Assembly: GCF_900091585.1 (NCBI RefSeq) | Contig: NZ_FMHT01000003.1 | Coordinates: forward strand, 744,001 to 808,000 | Source: Micromonospora nigra | GTDB taxonomy: Bacteria; Actinomycetota; Actinomycetes; Mycobacteriales; Micromonosporaceae | DNA: 64,000 bases | Reading direction: 5' to 3' | Part shown: in pieces, positions 14,707-36,937 of the stretch | Layout: each line of letters opens with the position of its first letter | Position numbering within the stretch: the first letter of the stretch is position 1 | Made by a program: the position numbers and the translations under genes | Notes under the pieces: model-generated | Told to the model about the DNA's origin: nothing | The model's input: the letters and a program-made list of their open reading frames with translations, nothing else | Databases searched by the model: none

Positions 14707-16131
14707 ATGACCGTGACGACCAGGCTCGACAGATCCTCCTGGCGACCGATCCACACCCGCATCCTGCTCGCGCTGGGTGTCGGGTGGGCCCTGGACTCCT
14801 TCGAGGTGCAGATCATCGGCAGCGTGATCCGCCCGCTGGCCAAGGAGTTCGGACTGACCGACGCCGCCGGTGCGGTGCTGCCCTGGGCGCTGTCCACCAC
14901 CTGGGTGGTGTGGTTCGTCGGACTGATGATCGGCGCCTCCGGCTTCGGCTGGTTGGCCGACCGGGTGGGCCGGAAGCGGCTCTTCGTGGCCACCCTGCTG
15001 GTCTACTCCCTGGCCGCCGTACTGACCGCCTTCTCCCCCAACTTCGCGGTCTTCCTGCTGTTCCGCTTCGTCACCGCGATGGGGGTGGGCGGGGAGTACT
15101 CGGCGATCACCTCGGCGATCACCGAGTTCGTGCCGGCCCGCAAGCGGGGCGCCGCGACCGCGGCCACGCTGAGCTTCTGGTCCATCGGGGGCATCGCCGC
15201 CGGCCTGATCGGCATCGGCTTCCTCAACGGGCTCATCGCCCGTCAGGTCACCGTCGGCGGCGTCGACCTGGCCGGTTGGCGGCTCTGCCTGCTCGCCGGG
15301 GCCCTCGCCGCCGGGTACGCCCTGATCGCGCGGCGGGCGATTCCGGAGTCACCCCGCTGGCTAGCCGCCCAGGGCCGCCGGGTGGAGGCCGACGCCATCG
15401 TCACCAGGATCACGGGCCTGCCCGACGACGGCTCGGACCCGGTGGGCGTCGACGTGCGGCGGTCGTTCCGGTCACAGCTGGCCGAGCTGTGGCGGGGTTG
15501 GCGCGGCCGACTGGTCTACGGCATGGTGCTGGAGTTCTGCGCCACCGGCGCCTACTACGGCCTGTTCACCTTCTTCGGCGCGTACGTGCTGGTGAAGGGG
15601 CAGGTGGAGGTCGCCGACGGCACCGTGCCGTTCTACTACCTGATCGGCAACGTCGGCGCGCTGGTCGGCGGGCTGAGCGTGGCCGCCGTCATCGACCGGG
15701 CCGGCCGCCGGTACACGGTGCTGGTGGCGTACGGCACGGCTGCCGTCTCGGTGTTGCTGCTGGCCCTCGCGGCGCTCACGCGGTCGCCCGGGTTGACCCT
15801 GGTGGCGTTCACGCTCTGCGTCTTCGCCGCGACGTGTTCCTGGATCTCGGCCTACACCACCTTCGCCGAGCTCTTCCCCACCGAACTGCGGGCCACCGGG
15901 GTCGGGGTCTCGGTCTCCGCGGGGCGGATCGGTGGCATGGTGGGTGTGGTCGGCCTGTCGTACACGGTGGGGGGTCTGGGGCTGGTCACGGCCTTCGCGC
16001 TGCTCGCCGCCTTCTTCGCGCTCGGCGCCCTGGCCTCGGTGGTCTGGGGTAGCCTCCGGGGCCCGGAGGGCCGGGGGATGTCCCTGGACGACCTTTCCCC
16101 GTCGCTGGCGCTGCCCACCGCGAGGTCCTAG
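14707..16131 (+). CDS. MFS transporter (sugar-porter/AAHS-like, 12 TM)
   Basis: 474 residues, strongly hydrophobic with about 12 predicted membrane spans. Typical major-facilitator loops are present: GWLADRVGRKRLF between TM2 and TM3 and PESPRWLAAQGR after TM6, the latter characteristic of the sugar/aromatic-acid porter branch. It is convergent with the ArsM gene and shares its terminator. As the first intact gene of the arsenic block it may export an organoarsenical or import a precursor; direction and substrate cannot be decided from sequence. Confidence 0.85.
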   Translation: MTVTTRLDRSSWRPIHTRILLALGVGWALDSFEVQIIGSVIRPLAKEFGLTDAAGAVLPWALSTTWVVWFVGLMIGASGFGWLADRVGRKRLFVATLLVYSLAAVLTAFSPNFAVFLLFRFVTAMGVGGEYSAITSAITEFVPARKRGAATAATLSFWSIGGIAAGLIGIGFLNGLIARQVTVGGVDLAGWRLCLLAGALAAGYALIARRAIPESPRWLAAQGRRVEADAIVTRITGLPDDGSDPVGVDVRRSFRSQLAELWRGWRGRLVYGMVLEFCATGAYYGLFTFFGAYVLVKGQVEVADGTVPFYYLIGNVGALVGGLSVAAVIDRAGRRYTVLVAYGTAAVSVLLLALAALTRSPGLTLVAFTLCVFAATCSWISAYTTFAELFPTELRATGVGVSVSAGRIGGMVGVVGLSYTVGGLGLVTAFALLAAFFALGALASVVWGSLRGPEGRGMSLDDLSPSLALPTARS

Positions 16132-16150
16132 TTGCCGTCGCTGCCCTGCC

Positions 16151-16185
16151 GGACGTGCCCGGTGCGTACTGCACCGGGCACGTCC
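16151..16185. terminator. Bidirectional terminator between MFS and ArsM genes
   Basis: Perfect 15-base-pair stem GGACGTGCCCGGTGC / GCACCGGGCACGTCC with a 5-base GTACT loop, between convergent stop codons at 16131 and 16190. Confidence 0.88.
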
Positions 16186-16189
16186 GCGT

Positions 16190-17233
16190 TCAGCAGCAGG
16201 CCGCTGCGGTGGACTCGCCGGACGCCGGCCCGGCGGGGGCGCAGGGGAAGAGCCCGAAGTGGGTCGTCCGGTCACCGATCACCTCGAAGTGGGCCGCGTA
16301 GCGCGTGCCGGCGAGCATGTCGGCGGTGTTGCCGCACACCGGCACCGGCTTGTTCGCGGGGAACCGGTGGTGGTCGTCGAGGTCGAACGCGTGCGGGTGG
16401 AGCGGCAGCGATCCGCGATAGGTGGCGATCTGCCCGTAGTCCTCGCAGCGGTCCTCGAAGGGCAGCTTGAAGGCGCGGATGGTCCGGGAGGAGAACGTGA
16501 TGAAGCCGATCCGGTGTTCGATGTCCGGGTTGCTCACCGTGAGCGGAGAGCTGCTGACCGCCCGGACGTCGGCGCAGCCCACGTCGGCCATGATCCGCCG
16601 GAAGTCCTCGGTGTAGAGGGCTCCGCCCAGACACTCACCGAGGAGCACCGGATCGGTGGTGAGCGGCGCGGGAACGCGGCGGTCGGCGAAGACGTCGGAG
16701 AAGTAGAGTTCCCCACCGGGGCGCAGCACCCGCATGATCTCCTGGAACACGCGGGGCTTGTCCGGGGAGAGGTTGAGCACGCAGTTCGACACCACCAGGT
16801 CCACCGACCCGTCGGCGATGCCGACGTCGCGCAGGTCCTCGATGTAGCCTTGGCGGAACTCCACGTTCGCGTAGCCGAAACGCTCGGCGTGGTAATCGAG
16901 ATGGCGGCGGGCCACGGCGAGTTGTTCGTCGGTCATGTCGACGCCGATGACCCGACCGCCCGCCCCGACCAGCTGCGACAGCACGTAGACGTCCCGGCCG
17001 CTGCCACAGCCGAGATCGAGCACGGTCAATCCCTCCAGGGCCGGCGGGATCGGTGACCCGCACCCGTAGAACCGGGACAGCACCTCGTCGTGCACGTTCC
17101 GCAGCGCCTCCGTGACGTGCCGCGGTGGCGCCTGATCGATGCAGCACGCCGACGTCTGCAGGTCGGCCGAGGACTTCAGCACCCTGCCGTAGTAGTCCTT
17201 GACCGACTCGGGGACGGACAGATCCGTAGGCAA
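16190..17233 (-). CDS. arsM: Arsenite S-adenosylmethionine methyltransferase (ArsM/AS3MT family)
   Basis: 347 residues. The SAM-binding motif is DLGCGSGRD (73-81). The cysteines that bind arsenite in this family are all in place: a CC pair in QTSACC (C30/C31), C58, C151 in SNCVLNL and C201 in LGECLGG. This set separates ArsM from UbiE-like methyltransferases. The C-terminal half follows the AS3MT C-terminal domain, and the protein ends in an extra Cys pair (AAACC). It converts As(III) stepwise to mono- and dimethyl arsenicals using SAM and thiols. It lies downstream of a flavin monooxygenase on the same strand (51-base gap) and near a radical SAM gene, so its methylarsenicals may be intermediates for a larger product, not just detoxification waste. 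Confidence 0.9.
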   Translation of the reverse strand: MPTDLSVPESVKDYYGRVLKSSADLQTSACCIDQAPPRHVTEALRNVHDEVLSRFYGCGSPIPPALEGLTVLDLGCGSGRDVYVLSQLVGAGGRVIGVDMTDEQLAVARRHLDYHAERFGYANVEFRQGYIEDLRDVGIADGSVDLVVSNCVLNLSPDKPRVFQEIMRVLRPGGELYFSDVFADRRVPAPLTTDPVLLGECLGGALYTEDFRRIMADVGCADVRAVSSSPLTVSNPDIEHRIGFITFSSRTIRAFKLPFEDRCEDYGQIATYRGSLPLHPHAFDLDDHHRFPANKPVPVCGNTADMLAGTRYAAHFEVIGDRTTHFGLFPCAPAGPASGESTAAACC

Positions 17234-17284: not shown

Positions 17285-18595
17285 TTACCGGGCGGGTCCG
17301 CCGGCTTGGTGCAGCAGCTTCCGCAGCAACCGGGTGTAGCTGCGGTCCTTGAACAACCACTCGCGGTCCGGTCCGTTGCCCAGGGCCGGGGTGAACGGCC
17401 GGGGCATCAGCCCGTGCGTCAACGGAGAGGCGTCGCCGGCCAGCACCGACCGCAGGTGCCGGGCGACCAACTGGGCCTGGACGTCCAGGGTGGAGAAGGA
17501 GCCCAGGGCGTCGACCAGGCCGATGGCGACCACGTCGTCACGGTCCGGGTGGAACATGTTCAGCCACAACCGGGGCCGCCCCTGCTCGTCGCCGTTGAGT
17601 TGTGCGCGGACGTCGAGGAACGGCAGGCTCACCCGGTAGCCGGTACCCCAGATGACAACGTCCGCCTGGGTCTTCGTACCGTCGGTGAAGGCCACCGTGG
17701 AACCGCTCAGCTCGGTCACCGGGGGCACCACCCGGATGTCGCCGTGCCCGATGTGGTAGGGCACCAGCGAGTTGACGACCGGCTGCCGGGCGTAGAGCCG
17801 GTGGGTGGGTGCGGGCAGCCCGAACGCCTCGGGGGTGCCGGCGAGCTTGCGGATCAGGCGCTCCTCGATCCCGGTCCGCACCCCCTCCGGCAGCCGGGAG
17901 GTCAGCCACTCGGCACCGCCCTTGCTGAGCTGGTCCACCGGCTTGCCCATCAGGTACTTCGGGATGATCTGGTTGCCGGTGCGGACGCTGAGCATGACCT
18001 CGGCGCCGGCGTAGAGCGCGTCGACGGCGATGTCGCAGGCGGTGTTGCCCAGGCCGACCACCACCACCCGCTGACCGGCCAGGAACTCCGGGGTGTCGTA
18101 ACTGGCCGCGTGCATGACTGTGCCGTCGAACCCGTCGTGCGGCACGTCGGGGCAGGCGGGCTCCCAGTGGTGTCCGCTCGCGATCACCAACGCCGCGTAG
18201 TCGACCTCCCGCCCGTCGTCGAAGGCGCATCGCCACCCGCCGCCATCGCGCGGTACCGCCGCGGTGACCTCGCGGCCGAACGTGACGTGTTCCAGCAGCC
18301 CGTGGTGCGCGGTGAACCGGTCGAGGTAGTCGAGCACCTGCCGGTGACCGGGATAGTCGGGGTAGTCCGCCGGCATGGGGAAGTCGGGCAGCGCCGTGCT
18401 GTACTTCGAGGAGATGAGGTGCGCCGAGTGGTAGACACCGCCGTACCGCGGATCGCGCCGCCACAGCCCACCCGCCGCGGCCCGACGCTCCACCACCTCG
18501 ACGGCCAACCCCTCGGCCAGGAGCCGGCGGGTGGCGAGCAGGCCCGCGACGCCCGCTCCGACGACACAGATCGGTTCCCTCGACGCTGCCGGCAC
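17285..18595 (-). CDS. Flavin-containing monooxygenase (group B)
   Basis: 436 residues. FAD motif VVGAGVAGLLA is near residue 11, and the FMO fingerprint FDGTVMHAASY (FxGxxxHxxxY) and NADPH motif GLGNTACDIA lie in the middle. Start is GTG at 18595, placed by GGAGGAGGAC just upstream. Class B enzymes oxygenate soft heteroatoms (N, S, Se, and plausibly As). Beside arsM it could oxidise trivalent methylarsenicals to the pentavalent oxide, or act on a carbonyl as a Baeyer-Villiger enzyme. It is divergent from the aldehyde dehydrogenase gene. Confidence 0.85.
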   Translation of the reverse strand: MPAASREPICVVGAGVAGLLATRRLLAEGLAVEVVERRAAAGGLWRRDPRYGGVYHSAHLISSKYSTALPDFPMPADYPDYPGHRQVLDYLDRFTAHHGLLEHVTFGREVTAAVPRDGGGWRCAFDDGREVDYAALVIASGHHWEPACPDVPHDGFDGTVMHAASYDTPEFLAGQRVVVVGLGNTACDIAVDALYAGAEVMLSVRTGNQIIPKYLMGKPVDQLSKGGAEWLTSRLPEGVRTGIEERLIRKLAGTPEAFGLPAPTHRLYARQPVVNSLVPYHIGHGDIRVVPPVTELSGSTVAFTDGTKTQADVVIWGTGYRVSLPFLDVRAQLNGDEQGRPRLWLNMFHPDRDDVVAIGLVDALGSFSTLDVQAQLVARHLRSVLAGDASPLTHGLMPRPFTPALGNGPDREWLFKDRSYTRLLRKLLHQAGGPAR

Positions 18596-18797
18596 GCGTC
18601 CTCCTCCTCCGTGCGGGATCGATCGACCCAGCAAAGCCGTGGTCGGCCCATCTCGGAGCACTCGACCGGCTACCCCAATCAGCGCGGAACGAGTGCCAAG
18701 TGGCGACGCACGGCCACTGCCCGGCTGTCGGGGTGGCTGGACGCAGGCACCATTCGGTCACCGTCCGACCGGCACCGTCGTGTCAGTGTCGGCGGAC
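18596..18797. promoter_or_regulatory. Divergent promoter region, FMO/arsM versus ALDH/radical SAM operons
   Basis: A 202-base gap lies between divergent starts and must drive both arms of the core arsenic module. It contains the palindromic string GATCGATC (about 18618-18625), similar in part to the GATCGAT found upstream of the PiT gene. No clear ArsR box is visible and no regulator gene is found in the block. Confidence 0.35.
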
Positions 18798-20225
18798 ATG
18801 GAAGCGCCAACACTGGACCACTTCGTCGCGGGCCAGCCCTTCCCCGGGGAGCCCGTCGAGGTGGTCACCCTGCACGACCCGGCGACCGGGCAGCCCTACG
18901 CGACCGCCCCGGTCGGCAGGTCCGCGGAGGTGGACCGGGCCTGCCGCTCCGCTGCCCTGGCGTTTCCCCGGTGGCGGGACACCACACCGGCCGTCCGGCA
19001 ACGCGCCCTGCTGGCCCTGGCCGACGCGATCGAAGGCCGGGCCGAGGAACTGGCGATGGCGGAGGTCCGCAACACCGGCAAACCACGGCGTCAGATGATC
19101 TCCGACGAGTTGCCGTCCGTCGTGGACTGTCTACGGTTCTACGCCGGTGTTCTCCGGCACGGCGAGACGGCCGCCACCGGCGAGTACGTCCCGGACCACA
19201 CCTCGATGCTGCGCCGGGAACCCGTCGGCGTCGTCGCGGCGATCACACCGTGGAACTACCCCCTGATGATGGCGATCTGGAAGGTCGCCCCGGCGCTCGC
19301 CGCCGGAAACACGGTGGTGCTCAAGCCCGCCGAGACCACCCCGGTCACTCCCCTGATGCTGGCCGAGATCGCCGCCGAGGTGCTGCCGCCGGGGGTGCTC
19401 AACGTCGTCTGCGGTGACCGCGAGACCGGGCGGCTGCTGGTCCGGCACCCGATCCCCGCGCTGGTCGCCTTCACCGGGTCGGTGGAAGGGGGCCGGGATG
19501 TCGCGACGGCCGCGGGCAGTGGGCTCAAACGGGTCCATCTGGAACTCGGCGGCAAGGCACCGGTCCTGGTCTTCGACGACGTCGTGCAGGACCCGGACAC
19601 CTGGCGGCGGGTGGTGGGGGCGGCGTTCTTCAACGCCGGGCAGTCCTGCACCGCGGCGACCCGGGTGCTCGCCCCGCGCTCGTGTCACGACGAGGTGGTC
19701 TCACGGCTTGCCGAGGCGGCAGAAGCGACCGAGGTGGGCCCGGACGGCGTCTACGGCGCGCTCAACGGTGCGGAGCAGCTGGCGCGGGTGAGCGCGCTGG
19801 TGGACGGGCGCGGGCCGGGGACCGAGGTGGTCGCCGGGGGCTCGGCGCTGCGCCGCCCCGGGTTCTACTACGCCCCGACGGTGATCGCCGGGGTGCGCCC
19901 CGACGAGGAGCTCGCCACCCGGGAGGTGTTCGGTCCGGTGATCACCGTGGAGGCGGGCACCGACGAGGACGCGCTGGTGGAGCTCGCCAACGCCAGCCGG
20001 TACGGCCTGGCCGCCAGCGTGTGGACGGCCGACCACCGGCGCGCGATGCGACTGGTCCGCCGGCTGGACTACGGCACCGTGTGGATCAACTGCCACTCGG
20101 TGCTGGCCAGCGAGATGCCCCATGGCGGGGTGCGCGACTCGGGGTACGGCGTCGACCTGTCCGGCCACGCGCTGGACGGTTACCAGCGACTCAAGCACGT
20201 CCTGACGGCGCTCGGTCAGAGCTGA
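18798..20225 (+). CDS. Aldehyde dehydrogenase (NAD(P)-dependent)
   Basis: 475 residues, standard ALDH length. Catalytic residues are visible: E249 in LELGGKAP and C284 in FNAGQSCTA; the substrate-anchoring WNYP motif is near 150. Closest in style to betaine-aldehyde/aminobutyraldehyde dehydrogenases. The chosen ATG at 18798 is preceded by a weak GGCGGA; a few upstream GTGs are in frame. In the proposed pathway it would oxidise a dimethylarsinoyl-acetaldehyde released by the class II aldolase to the acid. It leads a four-gene operon with the radical SAM, flavoprotein and nucleosidase genes. Confidence 0.85.
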   Translation: MEAPTLDHFVAGQPFPGEPVEVVTLHDPATGQPYATAPVGRSAEVDRACRSAALAFPRWRDTTPAVRQRALLALADAIEGRAEELAMAEVRNTGKPRRQMISDELPSVVDCLRFYAGVLRHGETAATGEYVPDHTSMLRREPVGVVAAITPWNYPLMMAIWKVAPALAAGNTVVLKPAETTPVTPLMLAEIAAEVLPPGVLNVVCGDRETGRLLVRHPIPALVAFTGSVEGGRDVATAAGSGLKRVHLELGGKAPVLVFDDVVQDPDTWRRVVGAAFFNAGQSCTAATRVLAPRSCHDEVVSRLAEAAEATEVGPDGVYGALNGAEQLARVSALVDGRGPGTEVVAGGSALRRPGFYYAPTVIAGVRPDEELATREVFGPVITVEAGTDEDALVELANASRYGLAASVWTADHRRAMRLVRRLDYGTVWINCHSVLASEMPHGGVRDSGYGVDLSGHALDGYQRLKHVLTALGQS

Positions 20226-20257: not shown

Positions 20258-21937
20258 ATGACCAGGATCGCCATCTGTGGGGGTGTGTACTCCAACCCGT
20301 ATGCGCTGCGGGCCTTCGTGGCCGACGCGCGCGCCAAGGGCGCCGACCGGTTGTGGTGCCTCGGCGACTTCGGCGGCTACGGCGCGGAGCCGGAGGAGAT
20401 CTGGACGCTGCTGCGCGGGAACGACATCGAGTGCATCGCGGGCAACTACGAGGTGGCGATCGGACGCGGGGACCCGGACTGCGGCTGCGGCTACCGCGAC
20501 CCCCGCGACAACGAGTACGCGCAGCTCATGTACGACTACACCCGCACCCACACCAGCGCCGGTTACGCGGCCTGGATGCGGTCGCTGCCCACCGAGCGGC
20601 GGGAACGCGTCGACGGCGTGGACGTGCACCTGGTGCACGGCTCGACGCTGCAGCTCAACGACTTCTGGTGGGAGTCGCTGACCGACCAGGAGCACCGGGA
20701 GCGGGTCGCCGCGAGCGGAGCGGACGTCATCTGCTGCACCCACTCCGGCATCCCGTGGACCCGGCGGATCGACGGGACCCTGGTGGTCAACGTCGGCGTG
20801 CTGGGCCGCCCGGCCAACGACGGCCGGCAGGAGGTCTGGTACGCCCTGCTCGACGTCGTCGACGGCGCCGCCGAGGCGACCCTGGTGCCGTTGGCGTACG
20901 ACTGGCGGGCGCACGCCGCATCGATGCGCGCCGCCGGGCTGCCGGAGGCGTTCGTGGAGACGGTGGAGACCGGCTGGTGGACGACCTGCCTGGAGATCGT
21001 GCCGCCACAGGAGCGCAGTCACGGTCGATTCCAGCTCTACCGCAGTGCCCTGCCGGACGAGTTCGGAGCCGCGGAGGTCAGCTGGGCCGACGCGCCGGAT
21101 ACGGTGGACGACGGCCGGCCGGTGGTGGAGTTGTTCGGCACCGCCCTCTTCCCGCCCCGGCTCTGGCTCTACACCAACTTCCACTGCAACCTGAAGTGCT
21201 GGTACTGCTCGGTCGCCTCGCATCCGAAGGCCCGGCCTCGGGAGATCAGCGGGGAGCGCTACCGGGAGCTGGTGGACGAGGCGGTCGCGGAGGGTTTCAC
21301 CGAGCTGTACGTCACCGGGGGTGAGCCTTTCCTGCGCGCGGACGTCGTGGAGCTGCTGGAGTACGCCAGCGAGCGGATCGCCACGGTGGCGTTGACCAAC
21401 GGGCTGCTCTACAAGGGCCGGCGGCGTACCGAACTGGCCCGGCTGGCGCACCGGCCGAACCTGATCCTGCAGACGTCGATCGACGGCGCCCGGGCCGAGA
21501 CCCACGACCGCAACCGGGGCGAGGGCAGCTGGGTGCGGGCGATGGAGGGCATCGAGATCGCCCAGTCACTGGGTATGCCGGTACGGGTCGGGATGACCGA
21601 GACGGCGCAGAACCAGGACGAGGTACCGCTGCTGCGCGAGCTGCTGCGCCAACGGGGGATCGTCGGGGCGAACTTCGCCGTACGGCCGCTGGTGCGGCGC
21701 GGACACTCCGACACCGGCGTGGAGATCGACGACCAGAACACGGTGCCGGAGCTGGCGGTCACCGCCGACGGCTGGCACTGGCACCCTGCCGGTGCCGACC
21801 TGGCCACCAGCCCGGACATGCTGCTCGGCCCGTCGGAGATCTCGATGCGCGAGGCCAAGCGCCGGGCGGTGGAACGTTTCCTGGTGCGACGGCAGTCCGA
21901 CGGGTCGCTGCCGCAGATCTACCACTGCGCCGTCTGA
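20258..21937 (+). CDS. Metallophosphoesterase-radical SAM fusion protein
   Basis: 559 residues with two domains. The N-terminal ~230 residues are a calcineurin-like phosphoesterase: GDFGGYG (36-42), GNYE (62-65), a CTHSG histidine and the NVGVLGRP motif like NPGSVG in YfcE proteins. Residues from about 295 are a radical SAM domain with the [4Fe-4S] motif CNLKCWYC (C310, C314, C317) and TGGEPFLR for SAM binding. By analogy with ArsS, which adds a deoxyadenosyl group to dimethylarsenite, it is the best candidate to build an arsenic-carbon bond to SAM-derived carbon. It is not a close match to the selenocysteine/Cys-rich ArsS family, and transfer of another SAM fragment (as by ArsL) is possible. 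RBS GGAGGGAAG precedes the ATG. Confidence 0.82.
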   Translation: MTRIAICGGVYSNPYALRAFVADARAKGADRLWCLGDFGGYGAEPEEIWTLLRGNDIECIAGNYEVAIGRGDPDCGCGYRDPRDNEYAQLMYDYTRTHTSAGYAAWMRSLPTERRERVDGVDVHLVHGSTLQLNDFWWESLTDQEHRERVAASGADVICCTHSGIPWTRRIDGTLVVNVGVLGRPANDGRQEVWYALLDVVDGAAEATLVPLAYDWRAHAASMRAAGLPEAFVETVETGWWTTCLEIVPPQERSHGRFQLYRSALPDEFGAAEVSWADAPDTVDDGRPVVELFGTALFPPRLWLYTNFHCNLKCWYCSVASHPKARPREISGERYRELVDEAVAEGFTELYVTGGEPFLRADVVELLEYASERIATVALTNGLLYKGRRRTELARLAHRPNLILQTSIDGARAETHDRNRGEGSWVRAMEGIEIAQSLGMPVRVGMTETAQNQDEVPLLRELLRQRGIVGANFAVRPLVRRGHSDTGVEIDDQNTVPELAVTADGWHWHPAGADLATSPDMLLGPSEISMREAKRRAVERFLVRRQSDGSLPQIYHCAV

Positions 21938-29191: not shown

Positions 29192-30406
29192 ATGCGTCGA
29201 CGTGTCGTGATCACCGGGATGGGCGCGGTCACTCCGCTGGCCAGCGACCTCCCCGGTACCTGGCAGGCCCTGTGCGAGGGACGCAGCGGGATCCGCGAAA
29301 TCGACGGGGCCCACAATGCCGTGCGCATCGCCGGGCAGGCCGTCGACTTCGACCCGAACACCGCGCTCGGCACCCGGACCGCCCGGCAGTTCGACCGGTA
29401 CACCCAGCTGGCCCTGGTCGCGGCCCGGGAGGCACGCGCGGTCGCGGGCCTGCCCGGGCGCAGCGGCGACGAGCGGTGGGCCACGGTGATCGGCACCGGG
29501 CTGGGCGGCATCGGCAGCCACGAGCGGGCGGTGCTGGCCCTGGCCGCGGGACGCCGCTCGGGCAGCGCCTACACGGCCGTCGCCATGGTGCCCAGCGCCG
29601 CGGCCGCCGCGGTGGCGATCGAGTCCGGCGCCCAGGGGCCGGCGCTGGCCCCCGGCACCGCCTGTGCCAGCGGCACCGACGCGATCGGCCTCGGCGCCGA
29701 CCTGATCCGGTTGGGTCGTGCCGACGTGGTGCTCGCCGGTGGCGCCGACGCCCCGGTGGGTCCGGTCGCGCTGTCCGCGTTCAACGCGGTCGGGGCGGCC
29801 GCCACCGGCGACGGCGACCCGGCGTCGGCGTGCCGTCCGTTCGCCGTCGACCGTACCGGCCTGGTGGTCGCGGAGGGCGCCGCCGTGGTCGTCCTGGAGT
29901 CGGCCGAGCACGCGGCGGGGCGTGGGGCCACCGCCCTCGCCGAGGTGCTCGGCTACGGGTCGAGCAACGACGCGCACCACCTGAGCGCCCCGGCGGCTGA
30001 CGGCGTCGCCGCCACCCGGGCGTTGCGCGCGGCGCTGCGGGACGCGCAGGTGTCGCCGGAGCAGGTCGGCTACGTCAACGCGCACGGCACCGGCACGGTG
30101 CTGAACGACCGGGTGGAGGCGCGGGTGCTCGCCGGGGTGCTGGGCGCCCGGACCCCGGTGTCGTCGACCAAGTCCATGACCGGGCACCTGATGGGTGCCT
30201 GCGGCGCGCTGGAGGCGGCGGTCTGCGTGCAGGTGCTGCGTACCGGCATCGTGCCGGCGACGCGCAACTGCCACGAGCTCGACCCGGAGTGCGCCGGCAT
30301 CGACGTGGTACGCGGCGACAACCGTGCGATGGACGTGTCGGTCGCCGTCAGCCCGAGCTTCGGCTTCGGCGGCTACAACGCGGTGCTGACGCTGGGTCGG
30401 GCATGA
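29192..30406 (+). CDS. Beta-ketoacyl-ACP synthase II-like (FabF family)
   Basis: 404 residues. The Cys-His-His set is complete: C158 in GTACASG, His in NAHGTGT and His in KSMTGHLMGA. VITGMGAVTPLA opens the protein. It is a single ketosynthase without a chain-length-factor partner, so it behaves like a fatty-acid-type elongating enzyme and not a type II aromatic PKS pair. It is followed 39 bases later by a KAS III gene. In the proposed scheme it elongates an ACP-bound chain started from an arsenic-containing acid. Confidence 0.85.
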   Translation: MRRRVVITGMGAVTPLASDLPGTWQALCEGRSGIREIDGAHNAVRIAGQAVDFDPNTALGTRTARQFDRYTQLALVAAREARAVAGLPGRSGDERWATVIGTGLGGIGSHERAVLALAAGRRSGSAYTAVAMVPSAAAAAVAIESGAQGPALAPGTACASGTDAIGLGADLIRLGRADVVLAGGADAPVGPVALSAFNAVGAAATGDGDPASACRPFAVDRTGLVVAEGAAVVVLESAEHAAGRGATALAEVLGYGSSNDAHHLSAPAADGVAATRALRAALRDAQVSPEQVGYVNAHGTGTVLNDRVEARVLAGVLGARTPVSSTKSMTGHLMGACGALEAAVCVQVLRTGIVPATRNCHELDPECAGIDVVRGDNRAMDVSVAVSPSFGFGGYNAVLTLGRA

Positions 30407-30445: not shown

Positions 30446-31474
30446 GTGACCGGACAGGGTGGAGTGTCGGCGGTGGTGACCGGGATCGGGCACTACCTGC
30501 CGGACCAGGTCATGACCACCAGGGACGTGGTGAACCGGGTCAACGAACGCAGCGGACGTACGGTGGTGTCCCCCCGGGTGATCCACATGTTCAGCGGGGT
30601 GGAGGAACGCCGGTACGCACCCCCGGGCACCACGTCCTCCGAGTTGGCCGCCCGGGCCGGTCAGGCGGCGATGGCCGCCGCCGGCGTCGACCCCACGGAC
30701 ATCGACCTGCTGTTGTTCGCGGCGGTCACCCAGGACGTCATCGAGCCGGCCACGGCCAACATCGTGCAGGAGCGGCTCGGCTGCTGGAACGCGGCGGTGT
30801 TCGACGTGAAGAACGCCTGCAACAGCTTCGTCAACGCGCTCGACGTGGCCGCGGCGAAGATCAAGCTGGGGCAGTGCCGGAGGGTGCTGGTGACCACCGG
30901 CGAGGTCGCCTCCATCCATGTCGCGTGGCAGATCCGCGAGACGGACGAGATCGGGCTCAAGCTTCCGGCGCTCACCGTGGGCGATGCCGGCGGGGCGTTC
31001 GTGGTGGAGGCGGGTCCGGCGCCCGGGGTACTGCCGGGGGTGTTCCGCTCCGACGGACGGGAGTGGCGTCGGTCCGTCATCCTTTCCGGCGGCACCCTGA
31101 AGCCGCACGACGGCGACCACTTCACCATGGACTGCGACGGTTCGCGGCTGCACGAGCTGGGCGTCGAGCGGGTACCCGCCGTGGTGGGCGAGGTGCTTGA
31201 GGGCGCGGGCTGGACGACCGACGACGTCAAGCTGGTGGTCCCGCACCAGACGTCCGTCCAGACGATCGAGATGCTCCGGGTGAAGCTCGGCTTCGCGCCC
31301 GAGCAGGTGATGGTGACCGTGGACCGGCTGGGCAACACGGGCGCGGCGAGCATCCCGGTGGCGCTGAGCCTCGCGGTCACCGAGGGCCGGGCCGGGCCCG
31401 GCGACAAGATCCTGCTGGTCGGCGGTGCCGCCGGCTTCGGCGTGTCGGTGATCCCGCTGGTCCTGCCGGGTTGA
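30446..31474 (+). CDS. Beta-ketoacyl-ACP synthase III-like (KAS III/FabH family)
   Basis: 342 residues. Catalytic triad: C125 in KNACNSF, H267 in VVPHQTS and N297 in GNTGAAS. KAS III enzymes start chains by condensing a CoA- or ACP-bound primer with malonyl-ACP; some catalyse ester or amide formation instead. GTG start with GAGAGGGAGAACG upstream. A second KS type beside an acyl-activating enzyme and ACP suggests an unusual starter unit. Confidence 0.85.
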   Translation: MTGQGGVSAVVTGIGHYLPDQVMTTRDVVNRVNERSGRTVVSPRVIHMFSGVEERRYAPPGTTSSELAARAGQAAMAAAGVDPTDIDLLLFAAVTQDVIEPATANIVQERLGCWNAAVFDVKNACNSFVNALDVAAAKIKLGQCRRVLVTTGEVASIHVAWQIRETDEIGLKLPALTVGDAGGAFVVEAGPAPGVLPGVFRSDGREWRRSVILSGGTLKPHDGDHFTMDCDGSRLHELGVERVPAVVGEVLEGAGWTTDDVKLVVPHQTSVQTIEMLRVKLGFAPEQVMVTVDRLGNTGAASIPVALSLAVTEGRAGPGDKILLVGGAAGFGVSVIPLVLPG

Positions 31475-31577: not shown

Positions 31578-32477
31578 TCAGAAGAACCGGGACAGCAGGT
31601 TGGCGGTCACCCGCCCGGGGACGCTCTGCGGCTTGTGCAGCCCGGACCGCAGGCCCTTGACCCAGTCCAGCGCGGGCGTGGGCAGCACGGTCTCCAGCAC
31701 CGAGCCGACCTTCACGTCGGTGCCGACGGGGTAGCGGGCGCGCGGGCGGTCGACGGTCAACGCGTGACGGACCGCGCGGGCCACCGGGTCCGGCTGGGGC
31801 AGTGCGGCGGCGTGCTCCAGCATGGCGTCGGCCAGGTTGTAGAAGCCGGCGTAGGCGGAGTTCTCGCGGGGCGGCGCCCCGTCCACCCCGCGCTGCCAGA
31901 TCCCGCTGGAGAACCCGCCCGGCTCGATGAGCACCACCTGCACGCCGAACTGGGCGACCTCCATGCGCAGCGCGTCGCTGATGGCTTCGAGCGCGAACTT
32001 GCTCGCCATGTACCAGCCGAGGAACGGCTCGACGATCAGCCCGCCGAACGAGGACATGTTGACGATCCGGCCGGTCCCCCGCGCCCGCATGCTCGGCAAC
32101 GCGAGCCGGGCCAGGCGTACCGGTGCCAAGACGTTCACCTCGAGCTGGTTGCGCACCCGGGCGTCGTCCACGTCCTCCACCGCACCGGCCTGGGCGTACC
32201 CGGCGTTGTTCACCACCGCCCACGGTCCGCCGTCGGTGGCGGCGGCCACCTCGGCGAAGGCCTCCGCCGTCGCGTCCACGTCGGTGAGTTCCACCACGAC
32301 GGTACGCAACGTCAAGCCGACGCGGGCCGCCTCGTCGCGAAGCGCCTCGGCCTTCTCCTCGCTGCGGGTGGTGGCGAAGACCGAGAACCCGGCGCGGGCC
32401 AGCTCGAAGGCCGTCACCCGCCCGATGCCCTGGTTGGCTCCCGTCACCAGCACCGTCTTCCGCCACGACTGCGTCAC
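31578..32477 (-). CDS. Short-chain dehydrogenase/reductase
   Basis: 299 residues. Cofactor motif TGANQGIG (about 13-20), NNAG, catalytic Ser in NMSSFGG and YMASK. The C-terminal extension beyond 250 residues is like retinol-dehydrogenase/ketoreductase-type SDRs. It may reduce a beta-keto group made by the ketosynthases. Last of four coupled genes (ACP, ligase, P450, SDR), with a GTG start overlapping the P450 stop. Confidence 0.82.
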   Translation of the reverse strand: MTQSWRKTVLVTGANQGIGRVTAFELARAGFSVFATTRSEEKAEALRDEAARVGLTLRTVVVELTDVDATAEAFAEVAAATDGGPWAVVNNAGYAQAGAVEDVDDARVRNQLEVNVLAPVRLARLALPSMRARGTGRIVNMSSFGGLIVEPFLGWYMASKFALEAISDALRMEVAQFGVQVVLIEPGGFSSGIWQRGVDGAPPRENSAYAGFYNLADAMLEHAAALPQPDPVARAVRHALTVDRPRARYPVGTDVKVGSVLETVLPTPALDWVKGLRSGLHKPQSVPGRVTANLLSRFF

Positions 32478-33658
32478 CAGGTCACCCTCAGTTCCTTGAT
32501 CTCGATGCCGAACATGGACTCCCGCCAGGGCAGTTGCTCGGGCGGATCCGCGAGGCGCAGGTGTGGGAAACGGTTCACCAGGCCGCGCAGCGCCTCCTGC
32601 AGTTCGACCCGGGCCAGCGCGGCGCCGAGGCAGTAGTGCGGGCCGTGCCCGAGCGCGATGTGGCCGACTCCCCCACGGTCGATGTCGAACCGTTCCGGGT
32701 CGGCGAACTGCGTCTCGTCGCGGTTGGCCGAGGTGTAGCAGGGGATGACGCCACTGCCGGCGGGGATGACCGTGCCACCGATCTCGACGTCGGCCACCGC
32801 GATCCGCAGGTCGCTCAGGTTCGAGCTGGGCGGGTTGAGTCGCAGCAACTCCTCCACCGCCGGCGCGATCAGCTCCGGGTCGGTGTGCAGCCGCGCGTAC
32901 TGCTCCGGATGGGACAGCAGCATCAGCAGACTGCAGGACAGGGTGTCGACGGTGGTGGGGTAGCCGACCATCAGCAGGGTCATCGCCAGCACGATGAGGT
33001 CACCCTGGTCGAGGAATCCCTGCTCGTCCTGAACCGTGACCAGCGTGCTGAGCATGTCGTCGGCAGGCTTCTCCCGCTTGGCGTCGAGGAGGCCGTCGAG
33101 GTACGTGCCGATGCCCTGGTAGGCGGTGAGCACCTCCTCCTCCGGGAAGTCGCCGATCGCGAAGATCCGGTCCGACCAGGCACGCAGCTGGTCCCGGTCG
33201 GCGTACGGGACGCCCAGCAGCTCACAGATGAAGGCCACCGGCAACGGGAAGACGAACGACTCGATCAGATCCGCGGGCTGACCGGCGGCCTCGATACCGT
33301 CCAGCAGTTCGGCGGTGAGTTGCCGGACCCGGACCCGCATCCGTTCCGTCGCGCGGGCGGTGAAGGCGCGGCCGACCAGTGCCCGCAGCCGGGTGTGTTC
33401 CGGCGGGTCGGTGGTGAACAGCGCGTTCGGCGGCATCGGGATCGGGGTGACCCGGGGTGCGTCCGGCGCGGTGAGCGCCGCGCGGCTGAACCGGAGATCC
33501 GTCAGGACGGTCTTGACGTCGTCGTAGCGGGTGACCAGGTACACCACCGACCCGGTGGGGAGCACGGCGGGCGCCACCGGACGCTCGGCGCGCAGCTGGG
33601 CGAACTCCGGTGGGGTGACCAGCGGTGCGGTCCGGTGGAACGGGTAGCCCAGGGTCAT
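32474..33658 (-). CDS. Cytochrome P450
   Basis: 394 residues, bacterial class I size. Heme thiolate C343 lies in LGHGPHYCLG, with Leu replacing the usual Phe at the motif start. ExxR is EELLR. The I-helix motif normally AGxD/ETT reads VGYPTT (232-236 covers GYPTT), so the acidic residue before the Thr pair is proline (P234). That change is known to correlate with altered oxygen activation in some P450s. ATG at 33658 overlaps the ligase stop. It probably tailors the ACP-bound or released chain; redox partners are not encoded here. Confidence 0.88.
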   Translation of the reverse strand: MTLGYPFHRTAPLVTPPEFAQLRAERPVAPAVLPTGSVVYLVTRYDDVKTVLTDLRFSRAALTAPDAPRVTPIPMPPNALFTTDPPEHTRLRALVGRAFTARATERMRVRVRQLTAELLDGIEAAGQPADLIESFVFPLPVAFICELLGVPYADRDQLRAWSDRIFAIGDFPEEEVLTAYQGIGTYLDGLLDAKREKPADDMLSTLVTVQDEQGFLDQGDLIVLAMTLLMVGYPTTVDTLSCSLLMLLSHPEQYARLHTDPELIAPAVEELLRLNPPSSNLSDLRIAVADVEIGGTVIPAGSGVIPCYTSANRDETQFADPERFDIDRGGVGHIALGHGPHYCLGAALARVELQEALRGLVNRFPHLRLADPPEQLPWRESMFGIEIKELRVTW

Positions 33659-35301
33659 CTCTGCTCCTTCGCGGGCGCAAGCATCCGACGCAGTGCGAGC
33701 TTGTCGGTCTTGCCGGTGGAGTTGCGCGGCAACTCCTCGGTGAACCTGACGACGGTCGGCGCGGCGTAGTCGGCCAGCCGGTCGCGTACCCAACGGCGCA
33801 CGGCCAGGGGTGCAAGCCGGGTCCCCTCGTCGGTGACCACGACAGCGGCGACGGCCTCTCCCGCAACGCGGTCGGGTACGGCGACGACCGCCACGTCCGC
33901 CACCCCGGGGCACTGCCGGATGACCCGCTCCACCTCGGCGGAGAAGACCTTGTGGCCGCCACGATTGATCATGTCCTTCTTACGGTCCAGCACGTAGAGA
34001 TAGCCGTCGGCGTCGACCCGCCCGACGTCGCCGCTGCGGAACCAGCCGTCGACGATGCCGGCGGCGGTCGCCTCCGCATCGCCCCAGTAGCCGGTGGTCA
34101 CCAACGAGCCGCGCAGGAACACCTCACCGACCTGGCCGGTCGGAAGCGGCCGGCCCTCGTCGTCGCGGATCTCCACCGCCATGCATGGCAGAGCCCGTCC
34201 CACCGAACCGGGGCGGGTGGCGAACTCCTCGTCGAGGAGCATGGTGGCCGGCGAGTGCGTCTCGGTGAGGCCGTAGACGTCGATAAGCCGGGTGTCGGGA
34301 AGTCGTTGGCGAAACAGCGCGACGAGTTCGGCGGGGAACGGCGCGCCACCGGCCGCCGCCACGCGCAGCGCGGGCAGGCCGGCCGCCGTGAAGCGAGGTT
34401 CGCGGGCGACCAGCGACCACCACGACGGTACGGCGTAGGCCCAGGTCACCTGGTGCCGGGCCAGCAGGTCGAGCCAGCGGCCCGGTTCGTTCGTCTCGAC
34501 CAGGACGCTGGTGGCCCCGGCGAGCATGGCGGGCAGGACGTGTGCGTGCATGGCGCTGATGTAGTAGAGCGGGAAGAGCACCGCCGTCCGGTCGCCGGGC
34601 CGCAGCCCGAGCACCTTCTGGTAGGACATGGCCGAATGCACGCTGCACCGGTGCACCACCTTGCTGGCCTTGGGCCGGCCGGTCGTGCCGGAGGTCCACA
34701 CCACCTGGTACGCGTCGGCCTCGTCCGGTTCGAACGCCGACCTCCCGGCGTCGGCGACGGGGTCGGGCAGGCGGAGTCGCTCCACCCGATCGGCCGGCAG
34801 GCCGGCGATCTCGGCTGCCTCCGTGAGGGCCGGTAGCAGTTCCGGCTGGCCCAACACCAGCCGCGGGGTGCTGCGCCGGATCATCCAGGCCCACTCGTCC
34901 CGGGCCAGCCGCAGGTTCAACCCCACCAGCACCGTCCCGGCGGCCGCGCAGGAGAAGATCGCGACCGCCATGTCGAGACGGTTCCGAGCGGCCACCACCA
35001 CCCGGTCGCCGGTTACCAGGCCCCGCCGCCGTTGCTCGGCGGCGCCGCCCCGGACCAGATCAGCCAGTTCGGCGAAAGTCGCGCGGGCACCGGTCTCGTC
35101 CACCATCGCCAGCGCGTCGGGCCATCGTCGCGCCGCCTGCTCCAGCACCGCCACGATCGAACGCGGGCGGCGGGGATAGCTGCGGGCCGGAGCGCCGAGC
35201 CAGGTTTCCGTGGTCACCGGACCGTCCAGCGAGAGGTCCGCCTCGGTCAGTTCCCCGTCGGCCGCCTCTGTCGCCGGCAGGGTCGTCGGCCCGCCCGCCA
35301 T
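33655..35301 (-). CDS. AMP-dependent acyl-CoA/acyl-ACP synthetase
   Basis: 548 residues. Adenylation motifs in order: WTSGTTGRPKAS (P-loop), YGLTETHS, WFRSGDVG and the C-terminal LPRNSTGKTDK with the catalytic lysine. It activates a carboxylate as the adenylate and passes it to CoA or to the phosphopantetheine of an ACP. It lies 3 bases after the ACP gene, so loading that ACP is likely. In the model the substrate is the arsenic-bearing acid from the aldehyde dehydrogenase, but an ordinary fatty acid cannot be excluded. Confidence 0.85.
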   Translation of the reverse strand: MAGGPTTLPATEAADGELTEADLSLDGPVTTETWLGAPARSYPRRPRSIVAVLEQAARRWPDALAMVDETGARATFAELADLVRGGAAEQRRRGLVTGDRVVVAARNRLDMAVAIFSCAAAGTVLVGLNLRLARDEWAWMIRRSTPRLVLGQPELLPALTEAAEIAGLPADRVERLRLPDPVADAGRSAFEPDEADAYQVVWTSGTTGRPKASKVVHRCSVHSAMSYQKVLGLRPGDRTAVLFPLYYISAMHAHVLPAMLAGATSVLVETNEPGRWLDLLARHQVTWAYAVPSWWSLVAREPRFTAAGLPALRVAAAGGAPFPAELVALFRQRLPDTRLIDVYGLTETHSPATMLLDEEFATRPGSVGRALPCMAVEIRDDEGRPLPTGQVGEVFLRGSLVTTGYWGDAEATAAGIVDGWFRSGDVGRVDADGYLYVLDRKKDMINRGGHKVFSAEVERVIRQCPGVADVAVVAVPDRVAGEAVAAVVVTDEGTRLAPLAVRRWVRDRLADYAAPTVVRFTEELPRNSTGKTDKLALRRMLAPAKEQR

Positions 35302-35304
35302 GTC

Positions 35305-35592
35305 TCAAGCCACCGGGGCGCGTTCGCTCACCAGGCGCTTGAGTTCGCCGTAGGTGACATGTTCCCGACCGGCGAGCAGGTTGGCGTCCAACGCGATCCC
35401 CATGTCCTCCTCGATGACGACGAGGAGCTCCGCGGCGGCCAGCGAGTCCATGCACAGGTCGTCGGCGAGGTCCAGGTGGTCCTTGAGATCGTCCGGGTCG
35501 ACTTCCAGGTGGGCGGCGACCACGCCGTGCAGCCGTCGGGTGAAGTCGTCGTCTCGCCCGGCCGGTGCCGGGTGTTCCGGTGTCGATGGCAT
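35305..35592 (-). CDS. Acyl carrier protein
   Basis: 95 residues, acidic, with the phosphopantetheine serine S50 in DLCMDSLAAAEL. An N-terminal ~15-residue extension precedes the four-helix bundle. First gene of the ACP-ligase-P450-SDR operon. It is likely the carrier for the chain begun by the KAS III/FabF pair across the terminator. Confidence 0.88.
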   Translation of the reverse strand: MPSTPEHPAPAGRDDDFTRRLHGVVAAHLEVDPDDLKDHLDLADDLCMDSLAAAELLVVIEEDMGIALDANLLAGREHVTYGELKRLVSERAPVA

Positions 35593-35896
35593 GGCGTCCT
35601 TCCTCTGCCGTGTCCCGATGGCCCTTCACGCCACGGGGTGCTTCGAGTTTCGACGCGGCCTCCATCGACGTACACCCACACGTTCGGTGGTCGGCCGGCC
35701 ACCTCTGGTCGGGCACCCCGAACGGACAGCCGGCGATGCACCGACGAGGGGTCTCGGCACCCAACGTGAGAGGCAGCATCCGTTGCGTGACCGGAGTTGC
35801 CGCCAGGCGGGAGGTTGCATTGATCGATATTGATCTGAGTACCGAGCGCCCGAGACCGAGCGTCCGACGAAGTCCACGGAGAGCGGAGGGTGCCGC
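35593..35896. promoter_or_regulatory. Divergent promoter region with TTGATC direct repeat
   Basis: A gap of 304 bases between the ACP gene and the PiT gene. At 35820-35835 a TTGATC-GATA-TTGATC direct repeat has a 10-base period; the inner GATCGATATTGATC is also a near-perfect palindrome (12 of 14 positions). This AT-rich block in a GC-rich region has the look of a regulator site and resembles half-sites used by ArsR/SmtB-type repressors, though it does not match a known box exactly. Confidence 0.4.
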
Positions 35897-36937
35897 ATGA
35901 CCGCCGTCATTCTTGCCATGTTGATCGGTCTCGCCGCCGTCAACGGCGCCAACGACGTCTCGAAGGGCGTCGCGACCCTCGCCGGCGCAGGAGTGGCCGC
36001 CTACCGGACGGCGATCATCTGGGGCGCCCTCACCACCCTCGCGGGCGCGCTGCTCTCCGTCCAGCTTGGCCAGGGCATGGGCAAGCTCTTCTCCAGTGGC
36101 ATCGTCGACACCGACCCGACCGAGGCCTTCGCCTTGGCGGTCCTGCTGGGCACCACGTCCTGGGTGGCGCTCGCGAGCGTGGCCCGGCTGCCCGTCTCGA
36201 CGACGCACGCGATCGTGGGCGCCCTCGTCGGCGGGGGGCTCGTCCTGGCACCGGAAGCCATCCAGTGGCAGGGCGTACTACGGAAGGTCCTCCTGCCGCT
36301 GCTGTTGAGCATCGTGGTCGCCTACGCGATCTCGGTCGGGCTCGCCCTCCTGACCAGAGCCTTGGGTCGGCCATCGCGGGCCAGGCCCGAGCCGTTGCGA
36401 GCCACCGCCGCGGTCGGCGCCACTCGCGGCGGACGGTCGACCAGGGCGGTGACTCCGATGAAGACAGCCAGCACCAACGACAGAGGGCTGACGCTCCTGC
36501 ACTGGATCTCCAGCGGGGCCACCAGCTGCGCCCGTGGACTCAACGACACGCCGAAGATCGCGGCGATCGGCGGATTCGCCCTGCTGCCGCACGGATACTC
36601 CCCTACCGGAATCAGCATCCTGGTCGCCGGGGCGATGGCCGTCGGCTCGCTGGCCGGCATCCGGGTCGCCCGTCGACTGGGGGACAACGTGCTCAAGATG
36701 ACGCACACCGAAGGATTCACCGCCAACCTCACGACGGCCGGCCTGGTCACCTCGGGCGCCCTACTGGCATTTCCGATGTCGACCACCCACGTGTCGACCG
36801 GGGCGATCGTCGGCGCGGCGGGCGGCCAGCTGCACCGAGTGTCCGGGCGTACCGTCCGCGACTTCGTGATCGCCTGGACGGTGACCCCGTTCTGTACCGC
36901 GATCGTCGCCGCACTGGCGATGACCGTCGTCCGATGA
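35897..36937 (+). CDS. PiT-family inorganic phosphate (arsenate) permease
   Basis: 346 residues with two PHO-4 repeats. Signature motifs are NGANDVSKG near residue 16 and RGLNDTPKIAA in the second half; about ten hydrophobic spans are visible, with a charged cytoplasmic loop in the middle (about 155-195). PiT carriers move phosphate with H+ or Na+ and also admit arsenate. Its position at the end of an arsenic-metabolite block suggests it supplies arsenate or replaces phosphate. RBS GGAGGGTG is upstream of the ATG. Confidence 0.85.
   Translation: MTAVILAMLIGLAAVNGANDVSKGVATLAGAGVAAYRTAIIWGALTTLAGALLSVQLGQGMGKLFSSGIVDTDPTEAFALAVLLGTTSWVALASVARLPVSTTHAIVGALVGGGLVLAPEAIQWQGVLRKVLLPLLLSIVVAYAISVGLALLTRALGRPSRARPEPLRATAAVGATRGGRSTRAVTPMKTASTNDRGLTLLHWISSGATSCARGLNDTPKIAAIGGFALLPHGYSPTGISILVAGAMAVGSLAGIRVARRLGDNVLKMTHTEGFTANLTTAGLVTSGALLAFPMSTTHVSTGAIVGAAGGQLHRVSGRTVRDFVIAWTVTPFCTAIVAALAMTVVR

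Follow-up and report, generated by a model that had tools for sequence, protein, structure and literature searches.

What might be made by a set of genes in which an arsenite methyltransferase (ArsM) lies close to a radical S-adenosylmethionine (SAM) enzyme, a nucleosidase, a sugar-cleavage operon, and enzymes of fatty acid type? The question is raised by a locus of Micromonospora nigra, contained in the 64-kb stretch of its 6.36 Mb genome that was analyzed here (contig NZ_FMHT01000003.1, positions 744,001 to 808,000; "the window"), along which GC content ranges from 64 to 76%. Codon-based gene calling placed 19 genes, g13 to g31, at positions 14707 to 36937 of the window, and Pfam and NCBIfam scans gave their families (Table 1), recovering the gene inventory of an earlier note that had read the region as a putative arsenolipid biosynthetic cluster. 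We show that the radical SAM, sugar kinase, and ligase genes (g17, g21, and g29) are co-inherited among relatives and that they form a contiguous stretch with ArsM and a small fatty acid synthase set in one metagenome-assembled genome (MAG). That the genes form one functional cluster is very probable. The best overall explanation, which we hold with about even confidence, would be a dedicated organoarsenic pathway running from ArsM to an acyl chain that ends in arsenic.

The neighborhoods of g17 were compared first across its relatives, which are 50 to 84% identical and come chiefly from records named as actinobacteria. From 91 relatives found, the best 80 were kept, representing 79 loci (L numbers), which were fetched and their open reading frames (ORFs) clustered; a per-gene recount by tblastn over the same loci gives figures that may differ from those of the clustering. 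When a representative that scores 226.2 bits against TIGR04283, above the cutoff of 182, was compared directly with the loci, a TIGR04283-type "arsenosugar" glycosyltransferase was found in 61 of the 79 (60 by ORF clustering). It occurs in none of the nine loci that have window-type genes or a PhnD-type transporter. These nine aldolase-type loci (L008 to L011, L013, L015, L017, L059, and L071) were picked by eye for window-type sugar, aldehyde dehydrogenase (ALDH), or ligase genes or a PhnD-type transporter, so that the separation at the level of loci is partly definitional; tests at the level of genomes are less so. Ten loci were of neither type by ORF clustering, three of them shorter than 5 kb; direct comparison makes L021 and L079 glycosyltransferase type (GT-type) and found no full-length glycosyltransferase match in L077.

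Across the 79 loci, tblastn found relatives of g13 in 26 (40 to 45% identity), of g14 in 23, of g18 in 35 (38 by ORF clustering, in both locus types), of g19 in six (L009, L010, L013, L015, L017, and L071), of g16 in five (three at 58 to 61%), of g20, g21, g22, and g24 in four each, of g23 in three, and of g29 in four (three at 54 to 57%). Of the 12 genes left of g13, 11 have relatives in zero or one locus and one, the g20 paralog g8, in four (g12 is a dubious gene call). Because partners recur near g17 at rates that the left flank does not show, g8 apart, the gene association at this region is more than chance.

The same split appears in whole genomes (G numbers). An ortholog of the sugar kinase g21 (52 to 60% identity) is present in all nine aldolase-type genomes, and none was found at an E value of ≤1e−40 in six comparison genomes picked from the remaining 70 loci (those of L007, L012, L016, L019, L021, and L025). 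Likewise, an ortholog of the AMP-forming ligase g29 (54 to 58%) is present in nine of nine, and nothing above 40% identity was found in the six. TIGR04283 shows the reverse pattern, exceeding its cutoff in five of the six comparison genomes, in none of the nine, and not in the window's genome (best score, 70.5 bits versus 182). The kinase lies outside the locus by which the genome was selected in five of the nine: G696, G697, and G700 have it on a separate contig, and in G698 and G701 it is farther away on the contig of that locus. The ligase lies outside that locus, on another contig, in six. The genomes are related drafts, so these counts are not independent trials, and absences weigh little because MAGs are incomplete. 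The earlier note had named blocks that never travel together as an outcome that would refute its reading; radical SAM, sugar-cleavage, and AMP-ligase genes in fact co-occur in all nine genomes.

Contiguity is most complete in the MAG G701, one contig of which carries the cluster at ~54.9 to 85.5 kb (~31 kb). In order, it encodes a ketosynthase (KS), an acyl carrier protein (ACP), an acyl (malonyl-type) transferase, an ACP, an acyl-CoA-dehydrogenase-like protein, and counterparts of g24, g23, g22, g21, and g20; then one gene without a family, g19, g18, Pst-like genes, an ACP-like gene, ArsR, a second ligase, and a dehydrogenase-like gene; and last a FabI-like gene, ArsM, a PhnCDE-type transporter, g17, ALDH, 1.9 kb without assignment, g29, and ArsR. 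Families were scanned on G701 itself or on close counterparts. A very similar set of parts is divided between two contigs in G698, whose FabI (L106) scores 313.5 bits, above the cutoff of 299. In G700, one contig carries ligase, ALDH, g17, Phn-type, ArsR-like, g19, and g20 genes and another carries g21, g22, a FabI-like gene, ACPs, an acyl transferase, and a KS; neither ArsM nor g23 or g24 was seen there. In G694, ArsM shares a contig with the ligase gene, g19, g18, and Pst-like genes. The set in L015 is minimal and runs g29-g21-g22-g24-g18-g19-g16-g17. Among 120 listed homologs each of g17 and g29, the two apparently share a contig in seven cases besides the window's own. The earlier note had suggested looking in other actinomycetes for ArsM beside the radical SAM gene and the aldolase operon. 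This expectation was borne out in part: one MAG contig joins ArsM, radical SAM, aldolase operon, ALDH, AMP-ligase, ACPs, KS, and FabI-like genes, whereas five of the nine drafts yielded no ArsM.

A divergent acyl-CoA-dehydrogenase-like protein (~350 amino acids) also recurs in aldolase-type clusters (L008, L009, L011, L059, L106, L139, L140, and L142); its Pfam N-terminal domain was above the cutoff in two of three proteins scanned and below it in the third.

The methyltransferase itself is well supported. The best PDB match of g14 is the arsenite methyltransferase 5evj (355.7 bits), with 4kw7 at 316.6 bits, and nearly the whole protein is covered. Residues C13, C41, C134, and C184 align with cysteines of these solved ArsM enzymes, which confirms the arsenic-binding cysteines that the earlier note had seen in the sequence; we take them to be positions 44, 72, 174, and 224 in CmArsM numbering. 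Against the curated NCBIfam ArsM model PRK11873, g14 scores 179.6 bits, below the cutoff of 263, and the Streptomyces ArsM relative in L025 scores 194.3 bits. The closest relatives of g14 among the fetched loci are 71 to 77% identical, belong to Streptomyces, and lie ~3 to 8 kb from a gene of the g17 family. ORF clustering placed ArsM in 22 of the 79 loci, namely, 18 GT-type, three aldolase-type, and one of neither type. An ArsM of the L009 type is present in four of the nine aldolase-type genomes (G694, G695, G698, and G701), as well as in G703 and G706, with a broken match in G705. ArsM, the ArsR regulators, and the fact that clusters of this kind alternate with arsenosugar-type ones make it probable, in our view, that arsenic is the element on which the cluster acts.

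The radical SAM protein g17 carries a CX3CX2C motif (C310/C314/C317) behind a metallophosphoesterase domain. In a 30-member alignment, C75, C77, C160, C244, and C557 are invariant besides the radical SAM cysteines. What are presumably the metal ligands of active metallophosphoesterases, D-x-H and GNH, are replaced in all 30 members (G9-x-Y11 and GNY64), which makes it probable that the N-terminal half has kept the phosphoesterase fold without the activity and now serves for binding; that its paired cysteines bind arsenic is a guess. The Foldseek matches were radical SAM cores and phosphoesterases, one of the latter an Ap4A hydrolase, with nothing more specific, and the AlphaFold model (mean pLDDT, 78; residues 310 to 326, <50) is too weak for placing the extra cysteines. 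The Rv1681 radical SAM family model NF049973 aligns with residues 298 to 558 only, at 251.9 bits (cutoff, 380).

Five genes, g20 to g24 (24147 to 29047, minus strand), form the sugar operon, with neighbors overlapping by 4 bp. The adjoining g19 has a purine nucleoside phosphorylase as its best PDB match. Relatives of g24 (47 to 60%) are in the same operon in other genomes, and its best PDB match, the xylose isomerase 3ktc, is weak. Relatives of g20 (54 to 65%) lie beside or inside this operon and those of g23 (52 to 56%) within it; neither was found in the L015 set, which suggests that both are accessory. A homolog of the ALDH g16 is directly upstream of g17 in L015, L017, and L059 (58 to 61%), and homologs at 59 to 62% occur in five of the nine aldolase-type genomes.

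The ligase g29 is separated from the ACP gene g30 by 3 bp, and 4-bp overlaps also join g27 to g28 and g28 to g29. An ACP or ACP-like gene stands beside the ligase in L106 and L116 as well, and G205, which at the thresholds of the phylum survey described below has a ligase homolog without g17, has an ACP-like gene adjoining the ligase and an ArsR-like gene nearby. Among 120 listed homologs of g29, 18 (P0140 to P0222) are fused to an ArsR-type helix-turn-helix (HTH) domain, which was C-terminal in the four fusions read. In their cysteines, the ArsR proteins that G698 and G701 encode as separate genes are unlike the fused domains read, and in L017 an ArsR-like protein with a CxC motif is encoded beside a transporter.

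With respect to chain building, the KS of the relatives' clusters is only 40 to 41% identical to g25 by BLASTP, with orthology unproven. KAS III and KS were rejected as conserved cluster members, because the former (g26) yields only FabH-like matches and a KS closer to the relatives' lies elsewhere in the genome; on the same sequence comparisons, the window's chain-extension set would be at best analogous to that of the relatives. In place of the PiT carrier g31, the relatives carry PstS-like and PhnDE-type genes. The PstS-like protein scores 144.0 bits, below its cutoff of 206.6, and its Pst-like neighbors and some PhnC-type ATPases were named by position and similarity without a scan. The cluster reading of the earlier note thus stands for the co-inherited radical SAM, sugar, and ligase genes and fails for KAS III, KS, and PiT as conserved partners. 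The window looks like a mosaic, in which the ArsM end resembles the GT-type Streptomyces clusters, the sugar and ligase part is aldolase-type, and the chain-building part is its own.

These observations can be arranged into a pathway. ArsM g14 would methylate arsenite, as its family and cysteines suggest, and g17 would add a 5′-deoxyadenosyl group to methylated As(III) in the manner of ArsS. From the resulting arseno-nucleoside, g19 would release adenine; g24 would then perform the aldose-ketose step, g21 would phosphorylate the ketose at position 1, and the aldolase g22 would cleave the arsinoyl-deoxyribose product to dihydroxyacetone phosphate (DHAP) and (dimethyl)arsinoyl acetaldehyde. In fluoroacetate formation, fluoroacetaldehyde is oxidized to the acid, and by the same logic that leads from 5′-fluorodeoxyadenosine to fluoroacetaldehyde, the ALDH g16 may oxidize arsinoyl acetaldehyde to a C2 acid. 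The ligase g29 would activate this acid and load it onto the ACP g30, and g25 and g26 would elongate it with malonyl units to an acyl chain whose far end bears arsenic, perhaps tailored further by the short-chain dehydrogenase g27 and the P450 g28, the least certain step. From a C2 aldehyde, an ALDH, an acid-activating ligase, and an ACP follow naturally, and the same holds for the KS, the acyl transferase, and the FabI-like protein that G698, G700, and G701 encode. Since the glycosyltransferase branch gives way to sugar and ligase genes in clusters that otherwise have the radical SAM family, and sometimes ArsM, in common, the gene content fits a branch point at the arseno-nucleoside, which would either be glycosylated to an arsenosugar or cleaved to a C2 arsenical. 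We lean toward a C2 arsenical as a product, and its use as a chain starter falls just short of an even chance. The whole proposal, in which arsenic-capped fatty acids are made by a dedicated pathway through an arseno-nucleoside, aldol cleavage, an arsinoyl-acetyl starter, and extension by discrete fatty acid synthase proteins, is tentative and tilts toward doubtful.

Several observations weigh against this reading. All of the chemistry is inferred from gene content, and the arsenic chemistry is a prediction. Against the ArsS model TIGR04167, g17 scores 38.9 bits (cutoff, 300). No ArsM was found with either ArsM query in five of the nine aldolase-type drafts or MAGs (G696, G697, G699, G700, and G702), and g13 relatives occur in 22 GT-type loci and in none of the nine aldolase-type ones. 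Paralogs of g16 in the window's own genome (58%) and in a GT-type genome (55%) show it to be unspecific, so that its co-occurrence is weak evidence. Several genes show no recurrent partnership: relatives of g25, g27, g28, and g31 were each found in one of the 79 loci (for g31, L083), weak relatives of g15 (25 to 30%) in two, and relatives of g26 and g30 in none. The relatives' cluster KS is matched more closely by a different KS from the window's genome (48%) than by g25 (44%), and the matches of g26 in 15 genomes are FabH-like at 31 to 42%. Among 396 genomes of the same phylum, g17 was found in seven (E ≤ 1e−100) and g29 in four (E ≤ 1e−110), own genome included, and both only in the window's genome; at these thresholds, three genomes have a 48 to 50% ligase homolog without g17 and six have g17 without the ligase. 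Finally, the HTH part has no cysteine in three of the four ligase fusions read and one cysteine in the fourth.

The rival that survives best, although unlikely, is disposal of a by-product. Here, g17 would free 5′-deoxyadenosine, which g19, g24, g21, and g22 would convert to DHAP and acetaldehyde (a DHAP shunt) and ALDH to acetate, and the arsenic product would be a different one. The known drd pathway (drdK/drdI/drdA) clears this radical SAM by-product through a kinase, an isomerase, and a class II aldolase (PMC6079011), and the nearest solved structures to g22, a fuculose-1-phosphate-type class II aldolase, are those of the 5-deoxyribulose-1-phosphate aldolase DrdA (6btd and 6btg). The drd systems are, however, defined by an MtnK- or MTAP-like first enzyme and an MtnA-like isomerase (PMC6079011), whereas the kinase here is of the FGGY type, the isomerase is a xylose-isomerase-type barrel (AP_endonuc_2), and the genes are linked to ALDH, ligase, and ArsR. 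In addition, the sugar operon alternates with the glycosyltransferase branch although the radical SAM family is common to both, and disposal leaves an ArsR-fused acyl ligase with an ACP unexplained.

Less likely again is that the C2 arsenical acid is itself the end product, or is methylated once to arsenobetaine, with the ligase, ACP, and ketosynthases serving a separate acyl product. Dimethylarsinoyl acetate is arsenobetaine minus one methyl group, and g16 falls in the betaine-aldehyde/aminobutyraldehyde dehydrogenase group, with 592.3 bits against a group cutoff of 615. The ligase nevertheless goes with the sugar kinase in all nine genomes, and in G698, G700, and G701 the pathway genes are interspersed with or flanked by genes for a FabI-like protein, ACPs, an acyl transferase, and a KS. 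Still harder to sustain is the view that another element or group, such as a phosphorus compound, is the substrate and ArsM a mere neighbor. PhnD- and Pst-type genes do adjoin the pathway, with PhnD/PhnE-type genes after g17 in 8 of the 79 loci, and the five aldolase-type drafts without a detected ArsM point the same way. On the other side, arsenate is a mimic of phosphate for phosphate-type transporters, and the full ArsM cysteine set, the ArsR regulators, and sister clusters that pair ArsM with an arsenosugar-type glycosyltransferase all argue for arsenic. That unrelated arsenic (g13 to g19), sugar (g20 to g24), and fatty acid or polyketide (g25 to g30) groups simply lie side by side would account for the rarity of g25 to g28, g30, and g31 relatives (zero or one of 79 loci each), but it is very improbable given the co-occurrence of g17, g21, and g29 across nine genomes, their contiguity in G701, and the seven g17/g29 homolog pairs that apparently share contigs.

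The proposed organoarsenic pathway also needs to be set against known systems. Arsenosugar synthesis in cyanobacteria likewise pairs ArsM with a radical SAM enzyme, ArsS, which adenosylates arsenic (PMC12159101; the pair also appears in PMC8552651), and the g17 family itself sits with TIGR04283 glycosyltransferases. Here, g17 is not ArsS, and cleavage of the sugar would take the place of glycosylation; a classic arsenosugar cluster was rejected, as the window's genome has no TIGR04283 protein above the cutoff. In the fluoroacetate pathway of Streptomyces cattleya, 5′-fluorodeoxyadenosine is converted to DHAP and fluoroacetaldehyde, and the same cleavage logic has been shown for 5-deoxyribose (PMC6079011). 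The proposed cleavage of a nucleoside to DHAP and a C2 aldehyde is alike in pathway logic; an arsinoyl group would stand for fluorine, and a ligase and ACP would follow. The bisenarsan (bsn) cluster of Streptomyces joins an organoarsenic C2 unit to an acyl chain and forms its C-As bond without SAM enzymes, via BsnM/BsnN/BsnJ (PMC12159101); its arsenic is on the alcohol of an ester, whereas here it would be in the chain starter. In a check confined to g13 to g31, Pfam named no homolog of BsnM, BsnN, or BsnJ and no EPSP synthase, phosphoglycerate mutase, or phosphonopyruvate decarboxylase type, which agrees with the earlier note's remark that an arsenoenolpyruvate mutase is missing, and bisenarsan-type chemistry was rejected for this region. 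The arsinothricin cluster arsQML also combines a radical SAM enzyme with ArsM, its ArsL transferring an aminocarboxypropyl group (PMC8552651); this type was rejected as well, with g14 at 163.3 bits and even the L009 ArsM at 340.8 bits against the cutoff of 500 of the arsinothricin ArsM model NF040538. In the open-license literature surveyed, some large result sets of which were surveyed in part, no cluster of the present kind was found described, nor do the available sections of PMC8787705, PMC7345539, PMC6939163, and PMC13171826 describe such a pathway.

With regard to distribution, a survey of 300 genomes of the family found g17 in one, the window's own, which left no near relative carrying the complete cluster for an alignment; the cluster is therefore a sporadic and perhaps acquired trait. 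A plasmid origin was rejected after comparison with 72,556 plasmid records, among which g17 had a single incomplete match (41.7% identity over 42% of the query) and g29 had no match at E ≤ 1e−80.

Table 1. Genes called in the putative organoarsenic region, with positions in the 64-kb window
Gene	Positions	Strand	Assignment	Basis or remark
g13	14707..16131	+	MFS transporter, sugar/metabolite type	Pfam Sugar_tr/MFS_1
g14	16190..17182	-	ArsM-type arsenite methyltransferase	Pfam/NCBIfam scans, PDB match, four As-binding Cys
g15	17285..18595	-	Flavin monooxygenase	Nearest NCBIfam model ArsO (106.6 bits, below cutoff of 425)
g16	18786..20225	+	Aldehyde dehydrogenase, aminobutyraldehyde/betaine-aldehyde dehydrogenase group	
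g17	20258..21937	+	Degenerate metallophosphoesterase domain fused to radical SAM	Pfam
g18	21957..23267	+	FAD-dependent oxidoreductase	Pfam
g19	23315..24049	+	Nucleosidase/phosphorylase, PNP_UDP family	Pfam
g20	24147..25160	-	D-2-hydroxyacid dehydrogenase family	Pfam; suggested accessory
g21	25157..26554	-	FGGY sugar kinase	Pfam
g22	26551..27267	-	Class II aldolase, fuculose-1-phosphate type	Pfam
g23	27264..28247	-	Zinc alcohol dehydrogenase	Pfam; suggested accessory
g24	28244..29047	-	Xylose-isomerase-like TIM barrel (AP_endonuc_2)	Pfam
g25	29207..30406	+	FabF-type ketosynthase	Cys-His-His motifs
g26	30473..31474	+	KAS III (FabH-like)	Cys/His/Asn motifs
g27	31578..32477	-	Short-chain dehydrogenase	Pfam
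g28	32474..33658	-	Cytochrome P450	Pfam
g29	33655..35301	-	AMP-forming acyl ligase	Pfam
g30	35305..35592	-	Acyl carrier protein	DSL motif
g31	35897..36937	+	PiT phosphate/arsenate carrier	Pfam; cluster membership uncertain

The loci of the GT type deserve a separate description. Many Streptomyces loci (L023 to L080) contain a recurrent cluster of a g17-type radical SAM gene, a second radical SAM gene (~475 amino acids), and a MerA-like flavoprotein gene. Genes for an MTAP-like phosphorylase and for one or two TIGR04283-type glycosyltransferases belong to it too, and ArsM is present in many of these loci. Among the 60 GT-type loci, 38 have the MTAP-like phosphorylase and 40 the second radical SAM protein. 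Judged by its genes, this actinobacterial cluster is apparently an arsenosugar-type pathway, of which we found no description in the literature surveyed.

The remainder of the window holds other gene sets. To the left (1798 to 13468) is a separate set with ATP-grasp, saccharopine-dehydrogenase-like, Lys/Orn N-hydroxylase, cupin-MetRS fusion, HemL-like aminotransferase, and PGDH-like genes, an adenylosuccinate synthase (416.8 bits; cutoff, 402), a lone PurH-N-terminal-type domain, a PfkB kinase, and an ECF-type sigma factor (8998 to 9591); we take this set to be reminiscent of formycin/pyrazofurin-type C-nucleoside clusters. To the right of the cluster, an McrBC component gene and an AAA_5 protein gene (38121 to 42114) are McrBC-like. 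An IS4/5-type transposase gene (42412 to 43275) precedes a row of VWA, protein kinase, helicase-like AAA_11/AAA_12, AAA_5, and DUF2357 genes (43566 to 54750; scanned in part), which by its families looks like a conflict or defense system. Genes for a DUF3323+DUF2399 protein, a 1,455-amino-acid protein, and a DUF2398 protein follow (55173 to 61905), a set that presumably resembles Wadjet type III.

The product type expected of the arsenic cluster is that of the arsenic-containing fatty acids of marine oils, for which we know of no biosynthetic genes. How arsenic enters fatty acids is unsettled; "biosynthetic infidelity" is asked about in a title in the reference list of PMC4265782, and that article proposes that arsenolipids might gauge the fidelity of biosynthesis and that a biological role would be likelier if their biosynthesis were directed and controlled. 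The present gene set offers genes with which directed arsenolipid biosynthesis in bacteria can be tested. If the proposal is true, arsenolipids would be made on purpose and not through infidelity of ordinary fatty acid synthesis, and adenosylated arsenic would have a second fate beside arsenosugars, in what would be the arsenic counterpart of the fluoroacetate route.

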